DNA from: Priestia megaterium NBRC 15308 = ATCC 14581
Lineage (GTDB): Bacteria; Bacillota; Bacilli; Bacillales; Bacillaceae_H
Direction of reading: 5' to 3'
Length of the DNA stretch: 64,000 nucleotides
Assembly (NCBI RefSeq): GCF_000832985.1
Contig: NZ_CP009921.1
Span: 1-64,000 of the forward strand
The notes under the pieces are model-generated. The model was not told where the DNA came from, searched no databases, and worked only from the letters and a program-made list of their open reading frames with translations. Made by a program: the position numbers and the translations under genes. This document shows positions 25,198 through 59,231 of the stretch, piece by piece. Position 1 is the stretch's first letter, and every line of letters begins with the position of its first letter.

Positions 25198-25650
25198 TTA
25201 TTTTTGTAAACTTTGTGCACCAATTCCTATTTTCTTTAATAAACCTACCAGTTGTTCTTTCTCTTCATTGCTTACAAATGAAAAATTTTCTGAGATTGTT
25301 GTAACGTGCTGGGCAAACATTTCACTAAACAAAACTTCTCCGTTTTCAGTCAAAGTGACATTAAACGCCCTCTTATCGTTTGGATTTGGTTTTCTTTCTA
25401 CAAGTCCCTGCTTTTCAAGCTTATTCACGACGTAAGTAATGCTTCCACTTGGAATAGATAGCGTTTCACTGATTTTTTGAATAGGATGAGCACCTTTGTT
25501 ATAAAGCAATTCAAGTACCATAAAATTTTCAGGGCTGATACTATAACTTTCTATATCCTTCCGAATATTTTCAAATACAGCCTTATTTGCTTTCATCCAG
25601 ATTCGAAATAGCCTTAAATCTAATTGGCTCTTCTCTTGTTTATAATCCAT
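25198..25650 (-). CDS. MarR-family transcription regulator
   Basis: A 150-residue winged helix: ENFMVLELLYNKGAHPIQKISETLSIPSGSITYVVNKLEKQGLVERKPNPNDKRAFNVTLTENGE is the HTH-wing signature, here noted by its parts IPSGSITYVV and DKRAFNV. Probably controls the pirin and DoxX genes that bracket it, like other MarR repressors of the quinone/thiol-stress type. Confidence 0.92.
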   Translation of the reverse strand: MDYKQEKSQLDLRLFRIWMKANKAVFENIRKDIESYSISPENFMVLELLYNKGAHPIQKISETLSIPSGSITYVVNKLEKQGLVERKPNPNDKRAFNVTLTENGEVLFSEMFAQHVTTISENFSFVSNEEKEQLVGLLKKIGIGAQSLQK

Positions 25651-25690
25651 GCAATTTACACCTCTTTGAAGTTGGAATCAAAAACAGAAA

Positions 25691-26452
25691 CTATCTATCT
25701 TTTGGATACAATGGATACTCGACTTGAGTTGGAATTTCTATAAACACAATGCGAAGACTATCTCCCTTAGGCTTGATTGTAATGGTTTCAGTTTTCTCAG
25801 ATTGAATAATAATAAAATCTTTTTTATCAAAAGAGAGCTCTTGCTGCACAATCTTGCCTCCATCACCTCTTATAGCTAGTCCTGCAATGGTTCGATTTGG
25901 AGTAAGTGTAAGCTGATAACTTGAGCTATTAGAAATTTCTATATCGTACATAAAGGCATCTGTTATCAGATTAATTGGCGAATCAGTTCCAAGTATAGTT
26001 TTAATGGTTACACCCTCTCCTTGAATGACAGGAAATTCCTCGTTTTTATATTTTGAATAGTTTGGTGTACGCTTGATTGCATCATTTAAATATGGTTCAA
26101 GCCATATTTGAAACATTTCTGCAGGGCCATCTGATCCTTCAGCATGCCACATGCCTGACCCTGTTTGCATAAGTTGTACACCTCCAGCGTCAACCTCGCT
26201 TTGGTTTCCTAGTGAATCTTTATGAAAACCTTTACCTGACAGGATATAGGTTAAAATTTCAAACCCTTGATGAGGGTGTTCGCCAATTCCACCTGCTCCT
26301 TTTGCTTGCCCCCATGCCCAGTAGAATAAAGGACCAAGTCGACTGATAACAGATCCTTCACCAGAAAACCCAATGGGTTTTTGTTCTATAATCTTGCCAC
26401 CATCAAATTCACCTTTTGCCTGTTCACTTGTATGAATGATTTTGACTTCCAT
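25691..26452 (-). CDS. pirin-family protein (bicupin)
   Basis: 253 residues. The N-terminal cupin has the metal-binding pattern GIGEHPHQGFEILTYILSG and the partner His in GSGMWHAEGS. A C-terminal cupin follows. Bacterial pirins of this type (YhaK/YhhW-like) include quercetin dioxygenases and redox sensors. First gene of the run; GGAGGAACAATA precedes the ATG. Confidence 0.92.
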   Translation of the reverse strand: MEVKIIHTSEQAKGEFDGGKIIEQKPIGFSGEGSVISRLGPLFYWAWGQAKGAGGIGEHPHQGFEILTYILSGKGFHKDSLGNQSEVDAGGVQLMQTGSGMWHAEGSDGPAEMFQIWLEPYLNDAIKRTPNYSKYKNEEFPVIQGEGVTIKTILGTDSPINLITDAFMYDIEISNSSSYQLTLTPNRTIAGLAIRGDGGKIVQQELSFDKKDFIIIQSEKTETITIKPKGDSLRIVFIEIPTQVEYPLYPKDR

Positions 26453-26887
26453 TATTGTTCCTCCTATAAGTTAAATGAATGAATTAAAATTGAAACCTAA
26501 CATTTCAAAAATATTAACAAATATAATGGTATGATTATTAGCTGTTTTTGAAATTATCGCATTTACCCTAACATTAGGATAAATCCGTGTCAACAAAAAT
26601 ATTCCCTATTTTTGATGGAGTGTCTACTGTCAAAAAGCACACCTTTTTATACGGTAAAAAAACGAATGATAAAACCTCTATTTAATCTAAAAAACAAGCC
26701 TTGTTAGACTTATTAAAAATACAAGGCCTTATTGTACGCTTGGTTTACGTCTCTTCCTAGCTGATAACTCTCAGCATTATTTTTGGAGTTAGAAATAGTT
26801 GTTTAATTCAGAAAATAATTATAGGAATACTCATTTCGGCATACTTCGACATCCATTATGTAGTAATATTTTATATAAATATACACA
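26453..26887. other. 435-bp non-coding region
   Basis: A GCCTTGT/ACAAGGC hairpin (about 26698-26727) is visible. The rest should hold the pirin promoter and the promoter for the riboswitch RNA. No gene seen. Confidence 0.45.
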
Positions 26888-26983
26888 TTCAGATAAAGGC
26901 AAACTAGTTGAAAAGCTAGGACGCAAAGCTACAGGTCTAAAGTCAATTGACTATGACAGCTGAGCCTCCTGAAAATCTGGAGG
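26888..26983 (+). ncRNA. cyclic-di-GMP-I (GEMM) riboswitch
   Basis: Matches the GEMM aptamer. P1 is TTCAG/CTGAA (26888-26892 with 26969-26973). The core is AAAGGCAAAC. P2 is CTAGTT-GAAA-AGCTAG with a GNRA loop (26904-26919). The conserved GGACGCAAAGC, the loop receptor GGTCTAA, P3 AGTCAATTGACT, and ATGACAGCTGAGCC follow. CCTCC (26965-26969) can pair with the ribosome site GGAGG (26979-26983). Because P1 uses bases of the same segment, ligand binding should free the ribosome site: a predicted ON switch. Confidence 0.85.
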
Positions 26984-26988
26984 AATTT

Positions 26989-27123
26989 ATGTTTATGGAC
27001 AGTAAAAAAGAAGTAATAACGTCACATTTAGACCAAGAATGGATTAGACTTATCCAAGAGGCTAAGGAAGTAGGGTTATCGGTTAAAGAAGTAAAAGCAT
27101 TCTTAGATAATAAACAAACCTAG
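26989..27123 (+). CDS. SinI-like anti-repressor peptide under c-di-GMP riboswitch
   Basis: 44 residues (ATG 26989, 5 bases after GGAGG; an alternative ATG at 26995). The core LDQEWIRLIQEAKEVGLSV, then KEVKAFLDN, matches the SinI dimerisation hook that sequesters SinR, the repressor of biofilm matrix genes. Full SinI size. The direct coupling to a c-di-GMP riboswitch is notable. It ends at a bidirectional terminator shared with a second SinI-like gene. Confidence 0.85.
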   Translation: MFMDSKKEVITSHLDQEWIRLIQEAKEVGLSVKEVKAFLDNKQT

Positions 27124-27130
27124 TGATAAT

Positions 27131-27167
27131 AAAAAACATTAGATAGGCACGCTATCTAATGTTTTTT
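27131..27167. terminator. bidirectional terminator between SinI-like genes
   Basis: A perfect 16-bp stem, AAAAAACATTAGATAG/CTATCTAATGTTTTTT, with a 5-base loop. Confidence 0.92.
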
Positions 27168-27181
27168 ATTACCGTGTTATC

Positions 27182-27295
27182 TTAAGATTTTGCTTCTAGA
27201 AACTGTTTAAATTCTTCTTTACTCACATTTGAATTCATTGCATCTTTTACTAGTTTCATCCACTCTTCTGGCAGAACTGCTATAGACTTTTTCAT
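27182..27295 (-). CDS. second SinI-like anti-repressor peptide
   Basis: 37 residues; ATG 27295 is preferred to 27298 for spacing after GGAGG. The motif LPEEWMKLVKDAMNSNVSKEE, then FKQFLEA, is the SinI hook. Convergent with the riboswitch-controlled peptide and clearly different in sequence, so it may bind a different SinR-like partner. No riboswitch upstream. Confidence 0.75.
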   Translation of the reverse strand: MKKSIAVLPEEWMKLVKDAMNSNVSKEEFKQFLEAKS

Positions 27296-27506
27296 CATAG
27301 TACCTCCTTACATAAATACTTTTTATCATTTACCGTTTGTTTTAAGCTTAATACTCTATTTTATAGTGACCATCCACTATATTACAACTAAATAGTTAAT
27401 CCTCTTTACTTTAATCGACTATAGATAGCTGTTTATGTAGTGAAAAATAAAATTCTTTCTACTATTCTCCCGTAGACACCGCATTTTTTAGTTTCTGATA
27501 TTCTTT

Positions 27507-28052
27507 TCACCGGCGATAAAAAGTAGCTTCACTTATATTTGTGATTTTACAGATTTCCTTTACAGGCTTATTAGTGGTTTCATGTAGTTCGATAGCATGC
27601 CTTACTCCATCATGCTTTAACGTAAATTTCTGTTTCTTTCCTTTATATATACCTTTTCTTTTTGCAATGGCAATTCCAGCTTGTTGCTTTTCTTTAATCA
27701 TTGTCCGATCAAGCTCACTAAATGCTGACATAACTGTTAAGATGAATTTTCCTGAAGGTGTTCGTGTATCGATACCTAAATTTAAAATCACTAAATGAAT
27801 ACCTCGTGCCTCTAATTCTTCAATAAGTTCCAATAATTGTTTCGTATTTCTTCCTAGACGATCCATTCTTGTCACCATCAACGTGTCACCTTTTACTAAT
27901 TGATCAAGCAATTGTGTTAATTCTTCTTTTTGATGGTGAATACCAGATACTTTTTCTTGTACAATTCGATCGACGTTTGCCTCTCTCAATTGTTCAATCT
28001 GCGAATCTAAAAGTTGATCAAAGGCTGAAACACGTGCATACCCAAAAATCAT
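27507..28052 (-). CDS. serine recombinase (resolvase/invertase family)
   Basis: 181 residues from the ATG behind GAGGAGGTTTTTT (longer frame from 28073 rejected). The catalytic Ser is in FGYARVSAFDQLLDSQ; TRMDRLGRNTKQLLEL and TPSGKFILTVMSAFSELDRTMI follow; the C-terminal HTH is EICKITNISEATFYRR. Different from the recombinase at 8989. No associated transposase. Confidence 0.92.
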   Translation of the reverse strand: MIFGYARVSAFDQLLDSQIEQLREANVDRIVQEKVSGIHHQKEELTQLLDQLVKGDTLMVTRMDRLGRNTKQLLELIEELEARGIHLVILNLGIDTRTPSGKFILTVMSAFSELDRTMIKEKQQAGIAIAKRKGIYKGKKQKFTLKHDGVRHAIELHETTNKPVKEICKITNISEATFYRR

Positions 28053-28327
28053 AAAAAACCTCCTCAAAATCAATAATTAAAAGACAAGTCTATATGATAG
28101 TTAAATTATACAGTAAAATCAACCCTCTCCTCAACTATCATTTAGGCATACTCTATTGATTGATTAATTAATAACTAATTATCTCTTTATATTGAGGAAT
28201 ATTCGTATTAACACAAAATTATTGATGTTCCCGAGTACAATAAAATAAATGACTTCAAGTTTTACTTTAAAGCGTTAAATTGTTACCATGTTATTAGACA
28301 ATCTTTTCTTATTGTTATTCCTTAGCC

Positions 28328-28366
28328 AAAAAAGCACAAACCATATATAGTGGTTTGTGCTTTTTT
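28328..28366. terminator. bidirectional hairpin terminator
   Basis: AAAAAAGCACAAACCA pairs with TGGTTTGTGCTTTTTT. No gene of its own is seen directly beside it. Confidence 0.85.
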
Positions 28367-28429
28367 AACTTTATAGGCCATTTTATAAACTTTATATTTA
28401 AATTCGTTGTCCATCTAATTTATTCGTAT

Positions 28430-28569
28430 GCAAAAAAGAACCCTTAAAGTAGAACGGGGACTGACCGGTTCTACTAAGGATTCTTTTTCCGGAGTATGCA
28501 GCTTTTTATACATCTTTATTATGCTAACGGCTTCTTCATAGGTGTATGAAAGATCCATGTATAAGAAGG
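28430..28569 (+). repeat. structured intergenic repeat, copy A
   Basis: Shares an ordered set of blocks with 55268-55393: GCAAAAnGAACCCTT, CTAAGGAT, GAGTATGC, CTTTTTATACATC and ATGTATAAnAAG. The last two blocks are complementary, closing a long hairpin. Partial copy C is at 60574-60650. Could be a structured RNA or a MITE relic. Confidence 0.5.
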
Positions 28570-28676
28570 GCACCATTTATCATATGTTTGTATGGTGAAA
28601 AATAGTCTTTACGAGTAAAACATGTTACGATTTACTTGCGGTTATATTTTGGTACTTTATAATTGTCAATCCTGAT

Positions 28677-28722
28677 AAAAACTACCTCGCTTGTTGGAGC
28701 ATTCTGTATCGAGGTAGTTTTT
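28677..28722 (-). terminator. terminator after small membrane peptide
   Basis: AAAAACTACCTCG pairs with CGAGGTAGTTTTT around a 20-base loop. Confidence 0.75.
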
Positions 28723-28737
28723 ATTGTATTATCCATT

Positions 28738-28857
28738 TCAATTATCTCTATATTTTTTAGTCTTCAAGATGTTCGTAGTGGCCCAACTTATAACTCCACC
28801 TACTAGCACGCCTCCACTAAGAGCTAAAAGATGATAGATATAGTCCCCAAAATACAT
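28738..28857 (-). CDS. small single-pass membrane peptide
   Basis: 39 residues, MYFGDYIYHLLALSGGVLVG start, one membrane helix (about 9-30) and a basic tail KTKKYRDN. AGAGGTGAAG precedes the ATG, and an intrinsic terminator follows the stop. Not recognised. Confidence 0.6.
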   Translation of the reverse strand: MYFGDYIYHLLALSGGVLVGGVISWATTNILKTKKYRDN

Positions 28858-29030
28858 ACAAACTTCACCTCTACATTTTCAGTGAACTTAATTATATCTA
28901 TCCTACTACTTTTTCAGTGAAATAATTGTAGTAATTTGGATAACAACGAATAGTTAGTCATTTTTTCCTAAGGGTATATATAAAATATATTGTATTGTTA
29001 TAAACTGCTTGTGAGAAAAGAGGGCTGTTT

Positions 29031-29204
29031 ATGCTAGATAAATATGAAGTGCTATTATTTACGAGGGATCTTTCAAATTTAACTAAAGATTATCCTACCT
29101 GTACAGATCCTTTAACGAAAGAAAGAATGTATCAGCAAATAGAACTGCTACGTGAGGTTCTTCGCTTACACGATCATAGTGAATTCAAATCATCTTTACA
29201 GTGA
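29031..29204 (+). CDS. small hypothetical protein, family X1
   Basis: 57 residues, MLDKYEVLLFTRDLSNLTKD start. It shares the spaced pattern LLFxRxxxxLxxxYxxC...KxxxxxxIxLLxE with the 52-residue protein at 31034-31192, which supports both as real, related small proteins. Predicted helical hairpin. Function unknown. Confidence 0.6.
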   Translation: MLDKYEVLLFTRDLSNLTKDYPTCTDPLTKERMYQQIELLREVLRLHDHSEFKSSLQ

Positions 29205-29257
29205 TTTTTTATTTAATAAAAGGTGCCTGCCAACTAGCACTCTTTACTAGTTTAGTC

Positions 29258-29292
29258 TAAAAGACCCTCTAATAAGGTAGAGGGTCTTTTTA
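29258..29292. terminator. bidirectional terminator
   Basis: AAAAGACCCTCT pairs with AGAGGGTCTTTT between the 29031 gene and the convergent 29322 gene. Confidence 0.85.
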
Positions 29293-29321
29293 ATCATCAA
29301 TAGTTGTATCCATAAGATGTA

Positions 29322-29684
29322 TTACTGTTCTTTAAGATAAGTAAAATAATCTTCTAAAGCTTGCAATGAAAGGGATTCTTTGTAATCGAACTTGTTATCT
29401 TCATCTGCTATTTCATAATGAGACCAAGGAATGGCTTGATATACTTCATTTATGAAATCTTTAGATCCTGCTAGTACAATCTTAGCTGTACCAGGCTGGG
29501 TAACAGCGAGATAAGCTAGGCCACTTTTTTGACTAAGAGTTTGGAAAACTGTGTATCTTTCTTCAGTTGCTAAGTCAGCCAACTTAGCAGGATAGTAGAC
29601 AACATCATTACACGGCGTAGGTAAAGCAACAAATTCTTTTGCGAGCGTAGATTGAGTTACATCTTTTGTTATGATTTTCATCAC
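29322..29684 (-). CDS. hypothetical protein, paralogue of 58869-59231
   Basis: 120 residues, not recognised. It aligns end to end with the protein at 58869 (shared VALPTPCNDVVYYPAKLA-type, FQTLSQKSGLAYLAVTQPGTAK, and a C-terminal ALEDYFTYLKEQ). No signal or membrane segment; alpha/beta composition. Two copies in one window suggest duplication or a plasmid-typical family. Confidence 0.65.
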   Translation of the reverse strand: MMKIITKDVTQSTLAKEFVALPTPCNDVVYYPAKLADLATEERYTVFQTLSQKSGLAYLAVTQPGTAKIVLAGSKDFINEVYQAIPWSHYEIADEDNKFDYKESLSLQALEDYFTYLKEQ

Positions 29685-29863
29685 CTTTTCTATATTAGAT
29701 TTAGCTTATGATTCTTTATACTATCATCTATTTAGTATTTGTAAAAATAATATAGATACCATCTATGTAATGATTACTCGTATAGTAGGGACTTCTACAG
29801 CCTCAGGCACCCGTCACAAAAACAAGCATGTTTGTGATAGTACATGGTAAAAACTTATATAAC

Positions 29864-29900
29864 AAGAAGAGCCTTTACCATCAAGGTGAAGGATCTTCTT
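29864..29900 (-). terminator. terminator after 29949 gene
   Basis: AAGAAGA.CCTT pairs with AAGG.TCTTCTT. Confidence 0.65.
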
Positions 29901-29948
29901 ATTATTTGCTCTAATAGATTCTTTTAAGATCTTCATCTTTATATTAAA

Positions 29949-30422
29949 TTAAGGTCTATGAAAATTGACGGTTTTCTCGTCATCTCCTGTGCGTTCAAAC
30001 CATCCTCTAAAGGCCCAGTTATCATAGCCTCCATCACCTTCATTAATAAATGTTCCTTCTTCAAATATCCAGACTCCATACGTAATACCATCGTAATCTA
30101 CTGTATCAAAATATTGTACACCTTGTAATTGATCTGAATTATAACCTTGACTCAAATTCATCACCATTACATTATATTGCTGACCCGATTCAAAGAATGC
30201 TTTTTCCATCGCTCCCTTGACGAATCCACTTCGGTTATCAGCTGATTTTTTTACGTCATCAATAGCCTGTCCAATCGCTACAGGATCAACGGTGACTTCT
30301 CCTCCAACCTCTGCTGCTTGTGCAGAACCAGTATCATCTCCTAAAGACGGTAGAGTTAGGGGTGTCGCTAACACAGCTAACCCTAATGCAGAAGCCACAG
30401 CAGCTTGTTTCGCTTTTCTCAT
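29949..30422 (-). CDS. secreted hypothetical protein
   Basis: 157 residues. Sec signal peptide (RKAKQAAVASALGLAVLATP, cleavage near SAQAAE about residue 37). The mature part is rich in Gly and aromatics: YNVMVMNLSQGYNSDQLQGV, YDGITYGVWIFEEGTFINEGD and WAFRGWFERTG. That pattern resembles Bacillus proteins labelled stress protein, but I cannot confirm a function. Probably exported during stationary phase or sporulation. Confidence 0.65.
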   Translation of the reverse strand: MRKAKQAAVASALGLAVLATPLTLPSLGDDTGSAQAAEVGGEVTVDPVAIGQAIDDVKKSADNRSGFVKGAMEKAFFESGQQYNVMVMNLSQGYNSDQLQGVQYFDTVDYDGITYGVWIFEEGTFINEGDGGYDNWAFRGWFERTGDDEKTVNFHRP

Positions 30423-30548
30423 TCTATCTCCTCCTCATTTTTAGATGATCCTTAGAAAATTTACCCTATTAATCCAATGTTAAACAAAAATAAGGAAATG
30501 ATAAGTAACGTACTGTACATGATTCATATCAAAATAAATATTCGTCCA

Positions 30549-38759: not shown

Positions 38760-39608
38760 TTAAACGACCAGTTGCCGATATTGTACAGGTGACTGGTTGT
38801 TTAGTTTTGTTTGAATACGGGCATTGTTATAGTAAGTAATATAGTTTTTGACGGTTTGCTCTACGATGGTGGTCGTAGTGTATGTCAACTCGTCAAGGTA
38901 GAACGTTTCAGACTTTAGCGAGGAATGAAACGATTCGATAGAGGCATTATCTGCGGGAGTCCCTTTGCGGGACATACTCATGGTAATGCCTCTTTCTTTG
39001 ATTTTTTGTTGATAAGCATACGATGTGTACACAGAACCTTGATCGCTATGCAACGTACATCCTTCAGGCAAAGAAGGAAGTTGGCTTAACGTATCTAAAA
39101 CAAACGCTACGTTTTGACAATCACCAATGGAATACGCAATGATTTCTCCGTTAAATAAATCTTGAATACTTGAAAGATACAACTGTTTAGGTCCAAAAGG
39201 CAAGTAGGTAATATCCGTAACTAGTTTTTGAAGTGGACGATCAGCTCGAAATTCACGATTTAATACATTCTCTGCAACCTGATAAGGTTGCCCTGTTCGC
39301 TGACGTTTCTTCCGTTTTACACGACATTGCCAACCATACTTCTGCATGGTACGCTGCACAAACTTATGATTAATCTTCATCGTTCGATTGAGTAATGCTG
39401 TAATCTTTCGATAGCCATATCGAAACTTGTGTTTATGACATTGTTCACCCACTTGTTGTTCCATCCATTTTTTTAATGTAGCCCGTTGTTTATGGTGCTT
39501 CCAACGATAGTAAGTAGATCGAGGGATATCAAGATGTAAACAAATTTGATAAATAGGTACCTGACCTTTCAATTCTTCCACCACATTCACTACAATTTCT
39601 GGTACCAC
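38760..39608 (-). CDS. IS3 transposase OrfB
   Basis: 282 residues from GTG. HTH_21 region (RYGYRKITALLNRTMKINHK) and rve core with D (LVTDITYLPFG), D (TLHSDQGSVYT) and E (NASIESFHSSLKSE). Start overlaps the orfA 3-prime end; expression as an OrfAB fusion is likely. Confidence 0.95.
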   Translation of the reverse strand: MVPEIVVNVVEELKGQVPIYQICLHLDIPRSTYYRWKHHKQRATLKKWMEQQVGEQCHKHKFRYGYRKITALLNRTMKINHKFVQRTMQKYGWQCRVKRKKRQRTGQPYQVAENVLNREFRADRPLQKLVTDITYLPFGPKQLYLSSIQDLFNGEIIAYSIGDCQNVAFVLDTLSQLPSLPEGCTLHSDQGSVYTSYAYQQKIKERGITMSMSRKGTPADNASIESFHSSLKSETFYLDELTYTTTTIVEQTVKNYITYYNNARIQTKLNNQSPVQYRQLVV

Positions 39609-43142: not shown

Positions 43143-43170
43143 AGTTAACATAAGCAATATTATCGGCAAT
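43143..43170 (-). other. dif-like Xer site 2
   Basis: Minus orientation: XerC arm ATTGCCGATAA (43160-43170), XerD arm TTATGTTAACT (43143-43153), 6-base centre. Lies just beyond the terminator at 43178-43216. Confidence 0.7.
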
Positions 43171-45953: not shown

Positions 45954-45985
45954 CTGTTTTTAGGCTGTATATGCTATACAAACTT

Positions 45986-46013
45986 AGTTTACATAAGACT
46001 GATTCGCGGAACA
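45986..46013 (-). other. dif-like Xer site 4
   Basis: XerD arm TTATGTAAACT (45986-45996, same as site 1), centre 6, XerC arm TGTTCCGCGAA. Directly beyond the terminator of the 46058 gene. Confidence 0.65.
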
Positions 46014-50875: not shown

Positions 50876-51136
50876 TAAAAAAGAGAATGGCACAAATATA
50901 GTATTCTTTCTTTTTATTTCCGACAAAGTACATGTTTAGCTACCGTACCGTGATCTATTCGTAGTTAAGGATCTATAAGGCTGTTTTATTATTCGAAAAA
51001 AAATATATGTGCGTCAACTACAACTTCTAGTGAGAGCCTAAAAAATTATGACATCTTTGTTAACAACAAGGTCTTTCTCCTCCCTATCTCGAAATAACCT
51101 ACTTGTAGAAAAAAATGGTAAAGGAGACAAAATCTT

Positions 51137-52603
51137 ATGCAAAAAATAAAATCCTCTCTTACAGGTCGCCTACGTGATTATACAAAGGAAATGATGAAAG
51201 ATTTAAATGTGCCAGGGGCATCAGTCGCAATCATAAAAGATGGAAAAATTATTCTTTCTGAAGGATTTGGGTATCGCGACATTGAAAATAAAAAACCTGT
51301 TACACCAAATACACTGTTTGCAATTGGTTCATCTACAAAAGCTTTTGGTACACTTTCTCTAAGTTTACTTGCCCAGCAACAAAAGTTTAATTGGGATAAA
51401 TCCATTCAGACTTATATTCCTACTTTTTCACTCCATGATCCTCTAGTAAGCTCACAAACTACAGCTCGTGATTTAGCCTCTCATCGTTCTGGTGTTAGTC
51501 GTCATGAACTGCTATGGTATGGATCTTCATTAACACGAAAAGACATCGTGGAAAAAATTCAATATTTGGAGCTAGATGCACCATTTCGTACAAGCTTTTT
51601 ATATAATAATTTAATGTATGCAGCCATTAGCTATATGGTAGAAGAAATTACAAATCAGACATGGGAACAGTATGTAACCGAACATATTCTGCAACCTCTT
51701 CATATGGAAGATACAAATTTCTCGGTTACTACTTCACAAGAAAAAGATGATCACGCATTTCCATACATTGAAAAAAACGAAGATATAGTCAAAGTCCCAT
51801 TTCGTAACATCGATACAGTTGGCGCTGCGGGATGCATAAATTCAAATATAGAAGATATGGCCAAATGGGTGCTGTTCCATTTAAATCAGGGGAAAGTGGG
51901 CGAACATGAGCTTATTACACCGAATATGTTACAGCAGATGTATCAACCGCATATCCCAATTCCGGATGAACCACTTTTATCTACATCAGAAACAACACTA
52001 AATTGTTATGGACTTGGCTGGTTTATTAGTGCATATCGCGGTCATAAAGTAATCCATCACGGTGGGAATATTGACGGATTTTCAGCACTCGTATCTTTTA
52101 TACCAGAGGAAAATATGGGGCTTGTTATATTAACAAACACTGGAACAACGTTATTACCATCTTACCTTGCGAATCAAATTTATGATGAGCTTCTAGAGCT
52201 AGATGCAATTGACTGGCATAAAAGAGCTGTAGAAGATACAGCTAAATTTAAAGAAATGATGAAAGAATTAGATAAGCCTCTTCCACAAGTAAAAGAGACA
52301 ACCTTTACACATGCAGTAGAAGAGTATACAGGGATATTTGAGCATCCTGCATATGGAAAAATTGAAGTGTATAAACAAAATGATACGTTATATTTAAAGT
52401 GGGAATCAGTTGATATAGAGATGAAACATCATCATTACAATATGTACACAACGAAGTGGAATCTTTCTCATACAGAAATGAATGTATTAATTGCCTATGA
52501 GATGGACGTAGAAGGAAAATTATCGCAGTTAAAATTAAATTTACCACCCATGTTGAGTACAAAACCGATTGTGTTTAGTAGAAATGTAGATAGAAATTCA
52601 TAA
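51137..52603 (+). CDS. serine hydrolase, beta-lactamase (class C/PBP-like) family
   Basis: 488 residues. Catalytic SxxK in FAIGSSTKAFG, YxN as SFLYNNLMYA, and third motif HHGGNIDGFSALV. No signal peptide, so likely cytoplasmic. A C-terminal ~100-residue beta domain (DUF3471-like: YTGIFEHPAYGKIEVYKQND). Closer to esterase/D-peptidase members than to true AmpC enzymes. AAAGGAG precedes the ATG. Confidence 0.9.
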   Translation: MQKIKSSLTGRLRDYTKEMMKDLNVPGASVAIIKDGKIILSEGFGYRDIENKKPVTPNTLFAIGSSTKAFGTLSLSLLAQQQKFNWDKSIQTYIPTFSLHDPLVSSQTTARDLASHRSGVSRHELLWYGSSLTRKDIVEKIQYLELDAPFRTSFLYNNLMYAAISYMVEEITNQTWEQYVTEHILQPLHMEDTNFSVTTSQEKDDHAFPYIEKNEDIVKVPFRNIDTVGAAGCINSNIEDMAKWVLFHLNQGKVGEHELITPNMLQQMYQPHIPIPDEPLLSTSETTLNCYGLGWFISAYRGHKVIHHGGNIDGFSALVSFIPEENMGLVILTNTGTTLLPSYLANQIYDELLELDAIDWHKRAVEDTAKFKEMMKELDKPLPQVKETTFTHAVEEYTGIFEHPAYGKIEVYKQNDTLYLKWESVDIEMKHHHYNMYTTKWNLSHTEMNVLIAYEMDVEGKLSQLKLNLPPMLSTKPIVFSRNVDRNS

Positions 52604-52643
52604 AATTAAATATAAAACTTACCATACATCAGTTTTAATAAAA

Positions 52644-52690
52644 AGAAAGTATTAACCGAGGCGCAACTTCTCGCTTAATACTCTCTTTAT
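52644..52690. terminator. hairpin after beta-lactamase-fold gene
   Basis: GAAAGTATTAA pairs with TTAATACTCTC, followed by T-rich DNA. Confidence 0.6.
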
Positions 52691-52782
52691 AATTTTTTAT
52701 ATGGATATAGCACTAAATAGTAGTATTCAACCTAATTTTTCAGTATTTTTTTCTTTAGATAATCGGTAACATATTTATATCC

Positions 52783-52810
52783 AGTTAACATAACAGGTAT
52801 TATCGGTAGA
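52783..52810 (-). other. dif-like Xer site 5
   Basis: XerC arm TCTACCGATAA (52800-52810), 6-base centre, XerD arm TTATGTTAACT (52783-52793). The XerC arm contains the stop codon and last codons of the GNAT gene. Confidence 0.75.
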
Positions 52811-53402
52811 AATTAAAATCTACAAAGTTTTTTTCTTTTACATTTATCCATTCATCAGAAATAATGCTAAAGTAAACATCATCACGCTTATTTCCATTTT
52901 GATCTATGTAATTATTTCTAAAAATACCTTCCTGTTTTGCACCTAGTTTTAAAATCGCTTTTTGTGAACGAATGTTATCTATGTCTGCACTTAATTGGAC
53001 TCTATTAAACTTCATTTCTTCAAAGATGTATTTTAAAAGTTCATATTTACAAGCATGATTTAAACCAGTTCCTTGGAACTCCTTACCATACCAAGTCCAT
53101 CCAATTTCTAATCTTTTATTGTGAAAATTTATGTTTCCTAGTCTTGTGCTTCCTGCCACACAATTAGTTTTTTTATCTATAATGATAAAAGGATAAGATT
53201 TACCTTCATTTCTTTCCAATAAAGTTGAATTTATATAATTTTTTAAGTCTTGATCTGTCTCAACGACCATACCCATATAACTCCAAATTGATTCATCAAA
53301 GATAATATCTTTTAGGCCCTCTCTATATTGTTCTTCAAAAGGAACTATTGAGACTCTAGAATTTTCTAATTTAATATTTTGGCTAAATAAAGAATTCATC
53401 AT
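52800..53402 (-). CDS. GNAT acetyltransferase (RimJ/RimL type)
   Basis: 200 residues. Opens with the RimL-like SQNIKLENSRVSIVPFEEQ; IGWTWYGKEFQGTGLNHACK is the acetyl-CoA region; SADIDNIRSQKAILKLGAKQEG and FRNNYIDQNGNKRDDVYFS complete the signature. AGAGGATG precedes the ATG pair. Its stop lies inside dif-like site 5. Single-gene unit bounded upstream by the degenerate site at 53529. Confidence 0.9.
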   Translation of the reverse strand: MMNSLFSQNIKLENSRVSIVPFEEQYREGLKDIIFDESIWSYMGMVVETDQDLKNYINSTLLERNEGKSYPFIIIDKKTNCVAGSTRLGNINFHNKRLEIGWTWYGKEFQGTGLNHACKYELLKYIFEEMKFNRVQLSADIDNIRSQKAILKLGAKQEGIFRNNYIDQNGNKRDDVYFSIISDEWINVKEKNFVDFNFYR

Positions 53403-53528
53403 TTATAACATCCTCTACATTTGTTTGATAAATTAAATTGTATATGGATTAACTTAAAATAAAAGCGACAGATTTCAAATAATCTAAGGTGTCACTTTCA
53501 ATGAATTAGAAAAAGAATACATAACTTT

Positions 53529-53556
53529 AGTTACCATAATAACCGTTAAATAAATA
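53529..53556 (-). other. dif-like Xer site 6 (XerD half only)
   Basis: XerD arm TTATGGTAACT is recognisable; the XerC arm (TATTTATTTAA) is not. Position after the HAD gene and its hairpin fits the series. Confidence 0.35.
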
Positions 53557-53590
53557 AACCATAGAATGAACTCTATGGTTTATTTATTTA
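53549..53590 (-). terminator. terminator overlapping HAD gene stop
   Basis: AAATAAACCATAGA pairs with TCTATGGTTTATTT. Confidence 0.85.
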
Positions 53591-54119
53591 GTAGCCAATT
53601 GATACCATCATTTAAATCTTCTGCAATATAGCTTGGATCAATGTCTTCCCATTTTTCCCTATGTTCATTTAAGGCTTCCTGTCCTGCCCCAGTTTGCACA
53701 AGTATTGTTTTAGCTTTTACCTTTGATCCTGCTACAATATCAGTCCAACGATCTCCAATAACAACGCATTTAGTTAAATCTAAGTTGTAATCATCTGCTG
53801 CTTTTAAAAGCATTCCTATCCCTGGCTTTCTACAAGAACAACCCTCAGTATGACTATGTGGACATACATAAATACCATCAAAGCCAAATGCTTTTAACTC
53901 TTTAATAAAATCCTCTTTACTTGCTTCACCTCTAGAAATACCAGGCTGGTTCGTAAAAGATAAAATCTTAATATTTTTCTCTTTAAGAATTTCAATAATT
54001 TTTTTAGTGAAGGGAAACAAACTAAATTCTCCTGGGTAATGAACAGTATTATCTCCACCAATGGTTCCATCGCGATCTATAAATATTGCTTGGATATTTT
54101 CTAATGGTAATGTACTCAA
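53580..54119 (-). CDS. HAD-IIIA phosphatase (GmhB-like)
   Basis: 179 residues from TTG. HAD motifs: IFIDRDGTIGG (DxD nucleophile), SFTNQPGISRG, a Lys and VVIGDRWTDIVAG. The Cys/His cluster CPHSHTEGCSCRKPG is the zinc loop of GmhB/histidinol-phosphate phosphatases. Substrate unproven. Single-gene unit between dif-like sites 6 and 7. Confidence 0.9.
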   Translation of the reverse strand: MSTLPLENIQAIFIDRDGTIGGDNTVHYPGEFSLFPFTKKIIEILKEKNIKILSFTNQPGISRGEASKEDFIKELKAFGFDGIYVCPHSHTEGCSCRKPGIGMLLKAADDYNLDLTKCVVIGDRWTDIVAGSKVKAKTILVQTGAGQEALNEHREKWEDIDPSYIAEDLNDGINWLLNK

Positions 54120-54257
54120 AATAAATCCTCTTCTCTTTTTTGGAATATATGTAAAATATAAGATTTATCATACAATTTAATAGGGATTCCTTCAATGAAA
54201 AGAAGCTTATTTTCTTATAATCTGCACTATCATAGCCTTTATACTTCATACATTTTT

Positions 54258-54285
54258 AGTTAACATAAAACCTTTTATCGGTAGG
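54258..54285 (-). other. dif-like Xer site 7
   Basis: XerC arm CCTACCGATAA (54275-54285), XerD arm TTATGTTAACT (54258-54268), 6-base centre; directly beyond the GNAT terminator. Confidence 0.75.
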
Positions 54286-54286
54286 A

Positions 54287-54314
54287 AAAGTACTTGAATT
54301 AATTCAAGTACTTT
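54287..54314 (-). terminator. palindromic terminator overlapping GNAT stop
   Basis: A perfect 28-bp palindrome centred on GAATTAATTC; the last codon and stop of the GNAT gene lie in it. Confidence 0.8.
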
Positions 54315-54733
54315 ACAAATAGAACCTTATCTTGATTGTCTTTATTCCATTGTTCAATTTCAAAACCCATTTTAGTATGATAAGCAATTGAAGCTTTATT
54401 CACAGGAGAAGTCACACAGCGAACAATATTGCGGCCACTTTGTTTAATTACATCGAAAAATTGATTATATAGTTGTCTCCCAATACCTTTTCCCCTGTAC
54501 TCCGGATGGATTCCAACAAAATGAATGTATGCTTCATTCGAATAGGATTGAGATAAGAATCCAATTAAAAAGCCTATGATTTCACCTTCTTCTTCAACAA
54601 TAAAACTAGTATTTTTAAAATGATCAAAAAAAAGCTTTGGCAACAAGTCAGACATTTGCCTTCCATTCCACCAGTCGTTGATTAACGGAGATATTACATA
54701 ATAATCTGATCCTTTCACTAAACGAACTGTCAT
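54299..54733 (-). CDS. GNAT-family N-acetyltransferase
   Basis: 144 residues. Acetyl-CoA motif VGIHPEYRGKGIGRQLYNQF, then NKASIAYHTKMGFEIE. GGGAGAG precedes the ATG. Single-gene unit between dif-like sites 7 and 8. Substrate unknown. Confidence 0.92.
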   Translation of the reverse strand: MTVRLVKGSDYYVISPLINDWWNGRQMSDLLPKLFFDHFKNTSFIVEEEGEIIGFLIGFLSQSYSNEAYIHFVGIHPEYRGKGIGRQLYNQFFDVIKQSGRNIVRCVTSPVNKASIAYHTKMGFEIEQWNKDNQDKVLFVKYLN

Positions 54734-54864
54734 TCTAATCTCTCCCTAATTTATTTATGAATTTACTTAAATTGATGCTATCACAGGAAGAAAATGCTAT
54801 GTTGTTCTTTCTTATTTTTTATTAATGAGTGCTAATATGAAAAGTGAATAGAATATACAAAATC

Positions 54865-54892
54865 AGTTTCCATAATCCATATTATCGGAAAT
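54865..54892 (-). other. dif-like Xer site 8
   Basis: XerC arm ATTTCCGATAA (54882-54892), XerD arm TTATGGAAACT (54865-54875), 6-base centre. Confidence 0.7.
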
Positions 54893-54900
54893 CAATAACA

Positions 54901-54936
54901 AAAAAACGCCTAGAATACTAACTCTAAGCGCAGAGA
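54901..54936 (-). terminator. hairpin after small membrane gene
   Basis: AACGC.TAGA pairs with TCTA.GCG. Confidence 0.5.
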
Positions 54937-54937
54937 T

Positions 54938-55120
54938 CTATATTTGTTCAGAATTACTAGACTCAGTAGTATTTCTCTTTTTTAATTCAAGAAGGAGAGC
55001 GATAATCCCAATAAGTCCACCTATCGTAAAGAGGTAAGAAACAAATGGTATTGGTTCACTTATTAATAAACCTCTGATTCCAAAAACAAATAAGATAATA
55101 TTACTGATTAAACCAATCAC
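54938..55120 (-). CDS. small membrane protein
   Basis: 60 residues, two membrane helices (IGLISNIILFVFGIRGLLI and FTIGGLIGIIALLLEL) and a polar tail. The GTG start has no close ribosome site; AGGAGGAG is further upstream near 55150, so an upstream non-ATG start is possible. Unit between dif-like sites 8 and 9. Confidence 0.5.
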   Translation of the reverse strand: MIGLISNIILFVFGIRGLLISEPIPFVSYLFTIGGLIGIIALLLELKKRNTTESSNSEQI

Positions 55121-55233
55121 AACTCTAATATTTTTACTAATGTTTTTCTCCTCCTTGTATTTTGCTTTTTAATCTATATAGAATATTTTACCATATTAAC
55201 CTATTTGATAACATGAATATCATATGCAGAACT

Positions 55234-55261
55234 AGTTTAGATAAAGCCTCTTTCCGGAACC
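55234..55261 (-). other. dif-like Xer site 9
   Basis: XerC arm GGTTCCGGAAA (55251-55261), XerD arm TTATCTAAACT (55234-55244), 6-base centre. Adjoins structured repeat B. Confidence 0.6.
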
Positions 55262-55267
55262 AAGCAA

Positions 55268-55393
55268 GCAAAAGAACCCTTGCGGCAGTAGGGTTCAGCT
55301 AAGGATCATTTTGCTTGAGTATGCGTCTTTTTATACATCGTTGATATGACTACGTTCTTTGGGTAGTTGAAAGAAACGAGAATGTATAAAAAG
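55268..55393 (+). repeat. structured intergenic repeat, copy B
   Basis: Shares block order with copy A at 28430-28569. Internal hairpins GAACCC/GGGTTC and CTTTTTATACAT/ATGTATAAAAAG. Confidence 0.5.
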
Positions 55394-55568
55394 AGCTCCT
55401 TTTATACATATGCAGCATCAAGAAAAATATAAATAAATTGGAAAAATATGATATAATTTAATAGTTATGGCATTCATTCTTCAACGAGTGTGAATCCTAA
55501 AAAGCAACCTCACTCCTATGACAAAAATGGAGTGACCCCTGTCAAATAGACAGTCTTAAGAAAACTAC

Positions 55569-56450
55569 CTATGCAGCCTGAGTTCTATACTGATAAGGAC
55601 TCAGGTTATTTAATTTTCGTTGAAATCGTTCATGATTATAAAAATTTATGTATTGGTGAACGGCATTTTTGACTTCATTGGCTGTTTGGAATTTATATAG
55701 ATAGAAGCATTCCGATTTAAAATGACTAAAGAAACTCTCTATACAAGCGTTATCCCAACAGTTGCCTTTTCTAGACATACTAACTTTCATCCCATTCGCT
55801 TTTAAGAAGCGATGATAAGCACGAGATGTATATTGAATTCCCTGATCACTATGTATGAGGACTCCTTCTAAATTTCTTCGTTTCTTGGCAATTTCGAGTG
55901 TATCCATTACTAATTTCAAATCATTCCTCGAACTTATCTTATAGGCAACAATTTCATTGTTGTACAAATCTTTAATCGCTGATAAATACAAAGATTGTCC
56001 ATTAAAAATTAAATAGGTGATATCGGTTACCCATTTCTGGTTAGGCTGCGAAGCCTTAAACTCTCTGTTCAGATGATTAGATGACAGAACGAAAGCTTCT
56101 TTTTTTCGATAATATGGCCGTTTTTTTCTAATAATAGCTTTTAGCTTCAGCTCTTTCATTAACCGTTGAATACGTTTGTGATTTACATGTAATCCATATA
56201 CGACCTTTAACCAGGTCTGTACTCTCCTATATCCATAGATACCTCTGAACTTTTGATAGCACTCTCTTATTTTTTGTTTCATTCTTCTATCTTCACATTG
56301 CTTATGAGAAGGGGAATCCTCACGGTTCCGCCATTTATAATAGCCACTTCTAGAAACCTCTGCAATTTTACATAAGAGGCAGATAGAGAAGCGTTTCTTT
56401 GACATTTCTTTAATAACTTTATATTTCTTTTGGATAGGTACTGCTTTCAT
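55569..56450 (-). CDS. IS3 transposase OrfB
   Basis: 293 residues. HTH_21 (RGIYGYRRVQTWLKVVYGLHVN) and rve domain: WVTDITYLIFNGQ (D), LIHSDQGIQYTS (D), DNACIESFFSHFKSE (E). Intact. Confidence 0.95.
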   Translation of the reverse strand: MKAVPIQKKYKVIKEMSKKRFSICLLCKIAEVSRSGYYKWRNREDSPSHKQCEDRRMKQKIRECYQKFRGIYGYRRVQTWLKVVYGLHVNHKRIQRLMKELKLKAIIRKKRPYYRKKEAFVLSSNHLNREFKASQPNQKWVTDITYLIFNGQSLYLSAIKDLYNNEIVAYKISSRNDLKLVMDTLEIAKKRRNLEGVLIHSDQGIQYTSRAYHRFLKANGMKVSMSRKGNCWDNACIESFFSHFKSECFYLYKFQTANEVKNAVHQYINFYNHERFQRKLNNLSPYQYRTQAA

Positions 56451-56458
56451 TCCTCCTT

Positions 56459-56755
56459 TTACACCTGTAAGAGCTTTTTTAACATTTCATTCTCAGCTTC
56501 TAATCGTTTTATTTTTGTTTCTGTATCTTCTGGATAAGTAGATGGATGCCCTATTGTAGAGCCTTGTGTTTTTCCTCTTTTTTCTTCAAGGCCTTTCAGG
56601 CCTTCAGCTTCAAAATGTCGAACCCAGCGCAGAACGGTTGTATGGTCAATCCCTAATTCTTTTCCAACGGCCTTACAGCCCATTCCATCCCAAAGATATA
56701 AATCGACTGCTTTTTTCTTAAACTCAATGTTGAATGTCCTCCTCTTTTTCCCCAT
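56459..56755 (-). CDS. IS3 transposase OrfA
   Basis: 98 residues: HTH (FNIEFKKKAVDLYLWDGMGC, then TTVLRWVRHFEAEG) and a short C-terminal coil (IKRLEAENEMLKKLL). 8 bases before orfB. Confidence 0.93.
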   Translation of the reverse strand: MGKKRRTFNIEFKKKAVDLYLWDGMGCKAVGKELGIDHTTVLRWVRHFEAEGLKGLEEKRGKTQGSTIGHPSTYPEDTETKIKRLEAENEMLKKLLQV

Positions 56756-57382: not shown

Positions 57383-57901
57383 TTGGGAAAAAGAGCTTTA
57401 CTGGTATTTTCATTACCAGAATACAAAGAAGAAATTGGCCGATGGCTATGGTGTTTAGAAGATGTTCGCCGTACTCTTCTAACACAATTAAATGGCACCA
57501 GCCAATGTATGCTTGATACAAAAATTGATGAAAGACAAACGATTAGCTCACTATTATATCACATTGCATTTATCGAGGCAGATTGGTTATATAATGAGGT
57601 TCTTGTTACTGAATGGGATTCCGAAATACGGTCGTTGTTTCCATTAGAAAATAGTTCTGAAGATGGCTCTTTAACCCACATTAAAGGACAAAGTTTAGAG
57701 GAACATTTTTACCGTCTTAATAAGGTGCGAGAAGTATTTCTTTATCACTTTCGTTCAATGGATTTAACAGATTGGCGTAAACCAAGAGTACTTGAACATT
57801 ACGACGTTACACCTGAGTGGGTTGTTTACCATTTGATTGAACATGAATCTCATCATAGAGGTCAAATTTTCCAATTACTTAGAGAACTACGAAGCGATTA
57901 A
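57383..57901 (+). CDS. DinB-family protein
   Basis: 172 residues from the TTG 9 bases after GAGGAGG. Four-helix DinB/YfiT bundle; metal-ligand His residues in SSLLYHIAFIEADWL and LIEHESHHRGQIFQLL. Members are metal-dependent thiol transferases or unknown. 31 bases before the DUF1697 gene; likely one operon. Confidence 0.88.
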   Translation: MGKRALLVFSLPEYKEEIGRWLWCLEDVRRTLLTQLNGTSQCMLDTKIDERQTISSLLYHIAFIEADWLYNEVLVTEWDSEIRSLFPLENSSEDGSLTHIKGQSLEEHFYRLNKVREVFLYHFRSMDLTDWRKPRVLEHYDVTPEWVVYHLIEHESHHRGQIFQLLRELRSD

Positions 57902-57932
57902 GATGTTAAAGTAATGAAATAAAACAAAAGAG

Positions 57933-58481
57933 GTGCCAAAAATAACTATTTATATTGCTTTATTACGGGGCATTAACGTAGGCGGGCACAAATTAATAAA
58001 GATGCAAGAATTAAAGAACGTATTAACAAACATGGGATTAGATAAAGTTAAAACCTACATTCAAAGTGGAAATGTAATATTTCATTCCGAAAGAAATGCA
58101 GAACAATTAGAAGAACAAATGGAGCAAGAGATTAGAAGTGCTTTCGGTTTTTCTATCATTATTATCTTAAGAACAGCTTCAGAATGGGAACAAATTATTA
58201 ACAATTGTCCTTATCCAGTTAACTCGTTATCGGAAGGAGAGAGTGTACATATATCGTTGTTAGCTAAAGAACCTTCTAAGGAATGCATAAATCATTTACT
58301 CAACTATAAAAGCGAGATGGAGCAATGTTGCATAAGGGGCAGAGAGATTTATTTATATTTGCAACAAAGCATCCGGCATTCTAAGCTTTTTGCTCAACTT
58401 CAGAAGGTAGGTGTTCCAGGAACATCTCGCAATTGGAAAACCATTAAAAAGCTCGGAACTATGGTAAATGAAATACAATAA
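57933..58481 (+). CDS. DUF1697 protein
   Basis: 182 residues. Signature start YIALLRGINVGGHKLIKMQE and KTYIQSGNVIFHSE. Function unknown; RNA- or nucleotide-linked roles have been suggested. GTG start close to AAGAGG. Confidence 0.9.
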   Translation: MPKITIYIALLRGINVGGHKLIKMQELKNVLTNMGLDKVKTYIQSGNVIFHSERNAEQLEEQMEQEIRSAFGFSIIIILRTASEWEQIINNCPYPVNSLSEGESVHISLLAKEPSKECINHLLNYKSEMEQCCIRGREIYLYLQQSIRHSKLFAQLQKVGVPGTSRNWKTIKKLGTMVNEIQ

Positions 58482-58594
58482 GTAGTTTGAAGAAATCCTT
58501 ATAATTTCGTTGTTCAACTAATACGAAGAGTGTGTTAGTTATTTATTATGTATCTTGCGGAAAAATAGGCAATTTTTCTACTTAAGTCGGGTAG

Positions 58595-58667
58595 AAAGGA
58601 GTCCTCGCGGACGCCTTCCCCCCCAAGAACCTTACGTGACAGATTTCCCATCATACGGATCAAGCCT
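58595..58667 (-). repeat. group II intron 3-prime end relic (domains V-VI)
   Basis: On the minus strand, a domain V-like hairpin (GATCCGTATG .. GGAAA .. CACGTAAGGTTC) is followed by a domain VI-like hairpin ending CTACCCGAC. The catalytic triad reads ATC instead of AGC, and no intron-encoded protein remains, so it is dead. Confidence 0.5.
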
Positions 58668-58868
58668 TCTTTTTATCCAAACAACTCTTTTAATTAATAC
58701 AAGGTACATGTACCAATTTAACAGCTTTACCTGTAGAAACTTCTAGATTTCGCACAGTAACTTTTTCTCCATTTTGTAGAGTTCTGATACACTAAAATTA
58801 ATGGGCGGTCTTTGTTATTAATATTCATCTGGAATAAGGTTTTCTTGTACTGGCATCCGTACAATAAA
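58668..58868. other. spacer, no gene seen
   Basis: Could include the upstream part of the intron relic; nothing definite. Confidence 0.3.
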
Positions 58869-59231
58869 TTATTGTTTCTTGAGATTATTAAAATAATCTT
58901 TTAATGCTTGGAATGAGGGAGCTGTTTTATAATAAAACGTATGGTCTTTATTCGTGATTTCATAATCAGGCCAAGGAATAGATTGATATAATTCATTCAT
59001 TGAATTTCTAGACCCAGCTAATATAAATTTAGCTGTATCAGGTTGAGTAATAGCTATATAAGCTAGGCCACTTTTACGACTTAAAGTTTGGAAAACAGAG
59101 TATTTCCCTTGAATTCCTAAGGTAGCTAAATTAGCAGGATAGTAGACAACATCATTACAAGGTGTTGGTAAAACAATTAAGTCTTTAACTAAAGTAAATG
59201 GAGTTAAATCTTCTGTTACCATTTTCATCAC
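58869..59231 (-). CDS. hypothetical protein, paralogue of 29322-29684
   Basis: 120 residues; aligns along its full length with the protein at 29322 (shared LPTPCNDVVYYPANLATLG-type block, VFQTLSRKSGLAYIAITQPD and the C-terminal ALKDYFNNLKKQ). No known family. AGAGGTG precedes the first ATG cluster. Confidence 0.65.
   Translation of the reverse strand: MMKMVTEDLTPFTLVKDLIVLPTPCNDVVYYPANLATLGIQGKYSVFQTLSRKSGLAYIAITQPDTAKFILAGSRNSMNELYQSIPWPDYEITNKDHTFYYKTAPSFQALKDYFNNLKKQ

Follow-up and report, generated by a model that had tools for sequence, protein, structure and literature searches.

Sequence comparisons point to shuffled gene cassettes bounded by dif-like Xer sites on Priestia megaterium plasmids

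Bases 52783–55261 of the Priestia megaterium DNA analysed here (bases 1–64000 of contig C7, a 301,264-bp plasmid of genome G000; this whole 64,000-base stretch is called the window) hold a row of short genes punctuated by sites that resemble chromosomal dif. An earlier note, made from the sequence alone, had read the row as an integron-like array of single-gene cassettes, and the question raised by the locus is whether such units do change places and which enzyme would move them. Comparison with related plasmids and genomes indicates that the array, which extends beyond 52783–55261, belongs to a cassette system at dif-like sites that is real, extensive and shuffled, apparently integron-like in its working without being an integron. 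We consider it probable that the units are exchangeable gene cassettes, bounded by dif-like Xer recombination sites and moved by the host XerC and XerD recombinases (XerCD).

The core of the sites reads TAGTTAACATAA-N6-TTATCGGAA, an XerD-like arm, a spacer and an XerC-like arm, with a spacer of 6 bp in 102 of 108 hits to a pattern permitting 5–7 bp. We scored sites on their arms alone, with a matrix trained on pattern hits, and took any score above 16 as a site. By this measure a first set of 1.76 Mb held 409 sites and 2 Mb of simulated sequence none; an enlarged set (3.29 Mb, 50 stretches, 22 strains) held 707, only 9 of them inside open reading frames (ORFs) of at least 100 amino acids (aa), which cover 63% of the DNA. 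The stretches were picked for holding sites (genomes with G handles) or for similarity to the window array, so that these densities are not those of random Priestia DNA; a search with the array had matched 37 PLSDB records, most only at its right-hand repeat, and 17 of these (15 strains) were used as sequence, an eighteenth, W17, being searched only. Within the window, 12 matches with at most three mismatches were found against 3.1 expected from shuffling (largest count 7; none of 100 shuffles reached 12).

The strict pattern was present in 63 of 397 genomes of the order. At least five copies were found in G000, G002, G007 and G008, of the window's genus, and in G010 and G013, of another genus in the same family (22 and 11 pattern hits, respectively, one of each with the dif-type TATATA spacer). 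The other strict-pattern genomes had 1–3 copies, mostly with a TATATA spacer as in dif, and a backwards-read control pattern gave one hit each in 2 of the 397. Chromosomal dif was AGTTTACATAATATATATTCTAGGAACC in five of ten genomes of the genus and a related form in three, with none found at up to two mismatches in the remaining two; in G000 a second, weaker dif match lies 31 kb away from this first one. On the cassette-site matrix (maximum 35.8) the G000 dif arms reach 31.2, and the arms of the cassette sites match those of chromosomal dif. A cluster of dif-like sites also lies in the G008 chromosome (C1, 1,749,000–1,876,000; loci L055–L061) and includes a gene for a 382-aa tyrosine recombinase of plasmid type, as if a plasmid had integrated there.

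Neighbouring sites less than 6 kb apart pointed in the same direction in 303 of 326 cases in the first set (93% against 66% in shuffles), bounding direct modules with a median length of 930 bp; the larger set gave 452 direct modules of 250–2500 bp, with a median of 804 bp. ORFs of at least 80 aa numbered one in 262 of these, none in 77 and two to four in 113. A cassette reads from an XerC-type arm through mostly one gene to the next XerD-type arm, and in most single-gene cassettes the 3′ end of the gene faces the XerC-type arm (gene antiparallel to the site in 192 of the 262 single-ORF modules). A perfect 9-bp stem within 90 bp was found on the C side of 25% and on the D side of 15% of 705 sites, compared with about 1% after shuffling; the excess is present on both sides and is therefore not confined to the 3′ side of the gene.

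Comparison of 312 modules yielded 110 ordered rows of a module and its copy (at least 85% covered and 75% identical; one pair can count twice), in which both neighbours were different in 100 rows and both the same in none. The earlier note had set a gene order conserved in all relatives against its own reading; the opposite was seen, and modules reshuffled at the same kind of site, next to different neighbours, support the integron-like cassettes that it proposed. When all stretches were aligned against each other, 2,333 alignments resulted, of which 68 started and ended no more than 25 bp from a site centre (mean for 20 shifted site sets 0.6, maximum 5), and 7.1% of all alignment ends fell that close to a site compared with 1.1% for shifted sites. 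Base-by-base alignment of 24 distinct site-bounded pairs placed the change-over in the spacer. Copies of window modules 1 and 3 were found on other plasmids, next to dif-like sites and with neither neighbour the same, those of module 3 in NZ_CP069609, NZ_CP137804 and NZ_CP086209, and homology to NZ_CP137803, NZ_CP071469 and NZ_CP016791 starts at 52800, the first base of the XerC-like arm of site 1. Module 4 recurs with a site at one end, and related DNA starts at a site in G010, of another genus, at 77% identity; relatives of its 60-aa ORF occur in NZ_CP127876 (80%) and CP136440 (69.6%).

Over the 2,601 bases searched, the array has 100% identity with NZ_CP035095 (P. megaterium NBRC 15308 = ATCC 14581, 301,273 bp) and also with two P. 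megaterium plasmids of 143,742 and 143,745 bp. Three of its sites (52784, 54259 and 54866) match GTTNNCATAA-N6-TTATCGG exactly on the plus strand, and sites 3, 4 and 5 have a palindromic box, described further on, beside their XerD-like arm. The array is made up as follows.

52784–52806, plus strand: dif-like site 1, GTTAACATAA caggta TTATCGG (0 mismatches, score 30.8)
52800–53402, minus strand: module 1 gene, GNAT acetyltransferase, 200 aa (PF13302, E 2.3e-18)
53530–53552, plus strand: decayed dif-like site 2, GTTACCATAA taaccg TTAAATA, XerC-like arm lost (score 13.0)
53547–53590, minus strand: terminator-like hairpin with a 19-bp perfect stem, 3′ of the HAD gene (z −8.3)
53580–54119, minus strand: module 2 gene, HAD-IIIA family hydrolase, 179 aa (PF13242, 5.7e-17; NF005264, 5.2e-89)
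54238–54252, plus strand: palindrome box of site 3 (10 of 14 positions match TGTATATNATATACA)
54259–54281, plus strand: dif-like site 3, GTTAACATAA aacctt TTATCGG (0 mismatches)
54282–54320, minus strand: region 3′ of the second GNAT gene that holds a terminator-like hairpin (z −6.1)
54299–54733, minus strand: module 3 gene, GNAT acetyltransferase, 144 aa (PF00583, 7.3e-20)
54845–54859, plus strand: palindrome box of site 4 (12 of 14)
54866–54888, plus strand: dif-like site 4, GTTTCCATAA tccata TTATCGG (0 mismatches)
54890–54940, minus strand: region 3′ of the small ORF that holds a terminator-like hairpin and a T-run (z −3.1)
54938–55120, minus strand: module 4, 60-aa ORF, no Pfam hit
55214–55228, plus strand: palindrome box of site 5 (12 of 14)
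55235–55257, plus strand: dif-like site 5, GTTTAGATAA agcctc TTTCCGG (3 mismatches, score 25.5)

Five sites in the same orientation had been described; all five share one orientation and four are strong, but the one at 53530 is decayed, its XerD-like arm kept and its XerC-like arm degenerate (TTAAATA), with a score of 13.0 on the first arm matrix. We retain this site because a copy of the module on NZ_CP071469 ends at an intact one. The four minus-strand single-gene units (GNAT, HAD, GNAT and small ORF) were confirmed by the ORF list and by their Pfam and NF005264 matches, except that the 60-aa ORF, although present, is called a small membrane protein by its look only. Terminators had been proposed for most units, and hairpins do lie 3′ of genes 2, 3 and 4; the module 1 gene has no terminator before its site, and its stop codon falls within the XerC-like arm. 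The uniform gene direction that had been described holds within the window but is only a bias across strains, as the 192 of 262 above show.

What passes from one site to another was read from the spacers. In the 24 aligned pairs, identity declines beyond the module-side arm and is close to chance level over the spacer. Pairs drawn from 742 sites keep both flanks in 45 cases, the D flank only in 405 and the C flank only in 276, the last two classes leaving out pairs with any weak similarity on the other flank. Spacers were identical in 26 of 26 pairs that keep both flanks at 97% identity or more, and in 37 of the 45 when the threshold is lowered to 80%. Where the D flank alone is kept (at least 95%, 45 groups), retention at spacer positions 1–6 was.68.68.56 /.06.08.05; for pairs that keep the C flank alone (54 groups) it was.15.30.23 /.24.39.53. 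Without CTC-ended spacers and the stretches of one plasmid, the corresponding values were.69.71.52 /.00.09.01 and.14.34.26 /.07.30.42. The D arm thus appears, from these alignments, to carry the first half of the spacer with it and not the second. Mutual information divides the spacer at the same place: positions 1–3 are tied to the D arm (z 12.3, 6.1 and 5.7; C arm 2.1, 0.1 and 1.6) and positions 4–6 to the C arm (z 11.3, 6.3 and 18.0; D arm 1.7, 3.3 and 0.6). The two ends of a cassette carried the same spacer in 3 of 294 cases, which is the chance rate, and matched spacers within cassettes were rejected on this count. Direct neighbours sharing the first spacer triplet were depleted (41 of 480 against 58.5 expected; 0.3% of permutations as low), as expected if such neighbours excise each other.

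A palindrome, TGTATANNNTATACA / TGTATATNATATACA, lies at −21 to −7 on the XerD side (430 flanks after removing relatives), where the XerC side has weak A-richness alone beyond the arm. It matched at 10 or more of 14 positions in 53% of 668 sites, compared with 0.0–0.3% at six control offsets. The exact form TGTATAN3TATACA has 123 copies close to sites and 34 away from them (expected, 0.5), and several of these 34 precede sequences that resemble degenerate sites. At the 13 loci taken as chromosomal dif, 2–7 of the 14 palindrome positions match; seven of these loci, from other families, were taken as dif for their TATATA-type spacer. Palindromes per genome broadly track sites (65 in G008, 44 in G002, 24 in G000, 11 in G010 and 10 in G013), with 0–6 in the other eleven genomes, including site-bearing G007 with 5, and 0–3 for controls. 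Half of the palindrome together with the core, allowing one mismatch, occurs in 34 places in G000 and in one place among 397 other Bacilli genomes, none of them of the same family. We also considered the palindrome as a promoter of the cassette genes; it accompanies 126 of 192 antiparallel modules and 36 of 70 parallel ones (p 0.044), an association too weak to be adopted. No single regulator gene stood out as its binder beside the 34 exact off-site copies.

Which enzyme, then, would act at these sites? Host XerC (C6, 1018.8–1019.8 kb) and XerD (C6, 1211.9–1212.8 kb) both pass their equivalog cut-offs. As the earlier note had it, there is no local integrase: none of the 13 PF00589 matches of the genome lies in the window, the nearest on the plasmid being at 153–156, 210–213 and 292 kb. 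The integron integrase model TIGR02249 was above cut-off in 0 of 19 matches in the genome, and an integron proper was rejected for this. By inference, host XerCD is the likeliest enzyme, because neither the 382-aa recombinase nor the resolvases track the sites and no integron integrase is above cut-off.

The 382-aa protein would be the obvious dedicated enzyme if a plasmid-encoded recombinase moved the cassettes with host XerCD uninvolved. It belongs to PF00589, though far under the Xer and integron cut-offs, and is encoded on site-bearing contigs of G000, G002, G007 and G008, within the chromosomal site cluster of G008 (1.764 Mb in 1.749–1.876 Mb) and, in NZ_CP069609, near an FtsZ/TubZ-like gene. 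Its presence does not track the sites, however, and it was rejected in this role: at E ≤ 1e-40 it was not found in G010 or G013, which have sites and the same palindrome, and G005 has it at 90% identity, as G012 and G015 have relatives of 42% identity, all three being genomes in which the pattern used finds no site. The match of the core arms to chromosomal dif also stands against a plasmid recombinase, and we regard this explanation as unlikely. A serine recombinase cutting the site centre would explain directly why the change-over lies near the middle of the spacer, but the sites have no conserved central dinucleotide, their arms are dif arms, and serine recombinases were rejected because their counts, taken without a tree, do not track sites: two resolvase-family matches in G008, which has the most sites, against 24 in G003, with 2 pattern hits. 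One of the two G008 matches has a 233-aa ORF like the 228–230-aa ones of site-poor G004, G012 and G015 (by length only). We judge a serine recombinase very unlikely.

Exchange might instead follow the Acinetobacter pattern, in which plasmids join into a cointegrate and separate again at site pairs whose spacers match; the mismatches seen here would then be a by-product of many past events. Several site-bearing contigs per genome would allow this, and spacers are identical in 7 of 77 pairs with the D flank kept (at least 95%) and in 15 of 102 with the C flank kept, against 1% by chance. Such exchange would, however, keep the whole spacer in nearly all recent pairs, whereas most differ and the unrearranged sites agree in all 26; we therefore hold it to be quite improbable. 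Were the sites bystanders, with the plasmids shuffled by homologous recombination and insertion sequence (IS) activity, one would expect the IS elements and large repeats that these plasmids do contain, and the 93% of alignment ends that are not at sites. But alignments that start and end at sites are about a hundred times as many as with shifted sites, and the change-over falls inside a 6-bp spacer between unrelated flanks, so that, on the alignments, bystander sites are already contradicted for the cassettes and have very little probability indeed.

For XerCD-mediated exchange, we propose that the host pair would bring together two sites on one or two replicons and that a half-reaction would form a Holliday junction with its branch point in mid-spacer. 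The junction would be finished by a cellular resolvase or by replication rather than by the second recombinase pair, since the other spacer half is unmatched. There are precedents for both parts in PMC5357621, the available parts of which describe cer, where XerC makes the junction and a cellular resolvase finishes it, and VGJphi, which uses a half-reaction and has an attP without homology in the XerD-side part of the spacer. Within one molecule such events would excise a circle; between molecules they would add or exchange cassettes. A dimeric accessory protein probably binds the palindrome and would determine the timing or the direction of the reaction. Co-resident plasmids and the chromosome would in this way share a pool of mostly single-gene functions that is reshuffled between them. 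More tentatively, and with somewhat less than even confidence, we suggest that Priestia and a related genus have a distinct system that combines direct dif-derived sites, a palindromic control box and an XerCD half-reaction that does without a full spacer match and is finished in mid-spacer by other cell functions.

Several observations weigh against exchange by XerCD as proposed. The C arm seems to carry the second spacer half only in part, which we cannot explain fully, and position 4 is inherited from neither side, so the half-reaction model is incomplete. Depletion of neighbours matching in the last triplet (12 against 18.1) or in the whole spacer (4 against 5.5) was not significant. XerCD exchange in Acinetobacter, in the available parts of PMC13141974 and PMC11705084, needs identical or near-identical spacers, and our data do not fit this. 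Only 48 of the 110 module copies are bounded by recognisable sites at both ends, and 93% of alignment ends lie away from sites, so other rearrangements dominate overall. Candidate insertions, seen as compact and expanded versions, came to 29 rows, 16 with sites at both borders, and 9 of those were within one stretch. Limits also apply to the reading of the array as cassettes: a score of 13.0, as at 53530, is expected about 0.8–1.2 times by chance in a 301-kb plasmid, and the HAD module was found on plasmids only in three near-identical records and one 69.9%-identical Cytobacillus firmus record. A promoter-like signal between D arm and gene was not clearly above control (8.62 against 8.50 shuffled and 8.40 on the opposite strand, n = 138) and was set aside. 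A group of tyrosine recombinases with a 305-aa ORF occurs in G000, G006 and G008, and among tyrosine recombinases the co-distribution tests covered the 382-aa one.

Further sites and one segment lie to the left of the array in the window.

33383, minus strand: site (score 27.4)
35901, plus strand: site (score 24.6)
36971, plus strand: site (score 18.6)
43144–43166, plus strand: dif-like site, GTTAACATAA gcaata TTATCGG (score 33.0)
45966–45980, plus strand: palindrome box of the site at 45987 (13 of 14)
45987–46009, plus strand: dif-like site, GTTTACATAA gactga TTCGCGG (score 28.1)
50937–52783, plus strand: serine-hydrolase segment, gene 51137–52603 (plus strand), named from the annotation of a relative in NZ_CP071468

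The serine-hydrolase gene is bounded by sites on both sides in G008 and NZ_CP072477; in the window its left site is not recognisable. The plasmid has further site clusters at about 69–96, 201, 240–255, 281 and 297 kb. To the right, a repeat of about 200 bp (window 55213–55413) starts at or just before site 5 and has many copies, at 68–87% identity, on these plasmids; many plasmids have sites that read CTC-TTTCCGG. Immediately right of site 5 no hairpin rose above shuffles (z −0.15), and an attI-like anchor there was rejected, as this repeat is found in many places and is no unique platform. Beyond it, two neighbouring ORFs of 293 and 98 aa (55569–56755, minus strand) resemble, by look only, an IS3-type transposase pair.

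Elsewhere in the window, a 6.6-kb repeat at 23930–30505 is 99.6% identical to C7 167672–174250, 143.74 kb away. This spacing equals the length of the two plasmids with the identical array, and the 301-kb plasmid therefore looks like a cointegrate that two plasmids formed by joining at the repeat. RNA family matches were a c-di-GMP-I riboswitch (26888–26972, plus strand, 80.6 bits), Listeria rli23 (38854–38956, plus strand, 55.8 bits against a cut-off of 45) and a group II intron (58586–58663, minus strand, 41.7 bits against a cut-off of 40).

An element of the IS110 family (PF01548), some 1.75 kb long, was found at L161–L166 (NZ_CP072477, for example 57398–59150), L167–L172 (NC_014023) and L099. 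In 6 of 12 alignment rows (one of them the query) the D arm of a site is 9 bp away from the element, and in a seventh 4 bp; the other five rows, including two near-full G008 copies, have no scored site alongside. Three of the occupied sites were found empty in G008.

If the cassettes do move as proposed, this would be integron-like gene capture run by the dimer-resolution enzymes of the chromosome. The arrays suggest that Gram-positive soil bacteria have an independent Xer-site cassette system, the second of its kind and laid out in direct arrays as integrons are, and may explain how Priestia plasmids build their varied gene content. They would also supply several hundred natural junctions that record Xer-site recombination without matching spacers, and a fixed accessory palindrome whose binder could be identified.

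Of known systems, the pdif modules of Acinetobacter come nearest, being plasmid gene modules bounded by sites of XerC arm, 6-bp spacer and XerD arm and shuffled between plasmids. The available parts of PMC13141974 and PMC11705084 describe pdif sites that alternate in inverse orientation, as C and D modules, with exchange at identical or nearly identical spacers, whereas Priestia neighbours are direct repeats (303 of 326), with unmatched spacers in which the change-over lies near the centre. PMC11705084, as far as available, also gives no accessory sequences near the two pdif sites examined for them; about half of the Priestia sites have the palindrome. The excerpt of PMC6449649 states that pdif sites were not found in closely related genera and that no data were known from other systematic groups. 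The Priestia system is pdif-like, with features unreported in the available parts of these three papers, and among the matches listed, mostly from open-access literature and seen in part, there was no description of Xer-site cassettes in Bacillus or Priestia, which is not proof of novelty.

Host XerCD acting at dif-like sites is shared with the integrative mobile elements exploiting Xer (IMEX) CTXphi, VGJphi and TLCphi, of which VGJphi, in the available text of PMC5357621, has a half-reaction without homology in one spacer half; IMEX integrate at chromosomal dif, whereas the Priestia elements are small gene cassettes in plasmid arrays. Sites of the cer type likewise have an Xer core and accessory factors, the palindrome binder in Priestia being putative, but they serve dimer resolution with their own accessory proteins and an 8-bp central region, where in Priestia there are tens of sites to a plasmid, the palindrome is 15 bp and the spacer 6 bp long, and cassettes are exchanged.

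Integron attC sites are folded. The Priestia sites differ in being short dif-like cores, with conservation at cassette ends limited to about −21 to +32 around the core, and in having no integron integrase above cut-off; no attI platform was identified in the arrays, although no search was aimed at attC or attI. The IS110-type element at Priestia sites has its counterparts in IS1111-family elements (IS110/IS1111-type) that target attC sites and in an IS family that targets pdif sites, as described in the available parts of PMC11187229 and PMC10132070, respectively. With integron cassettes the Priestia arrays share directly repeated sites, mostly single-gene cassettes, a biased gene direction and a shuffled order.

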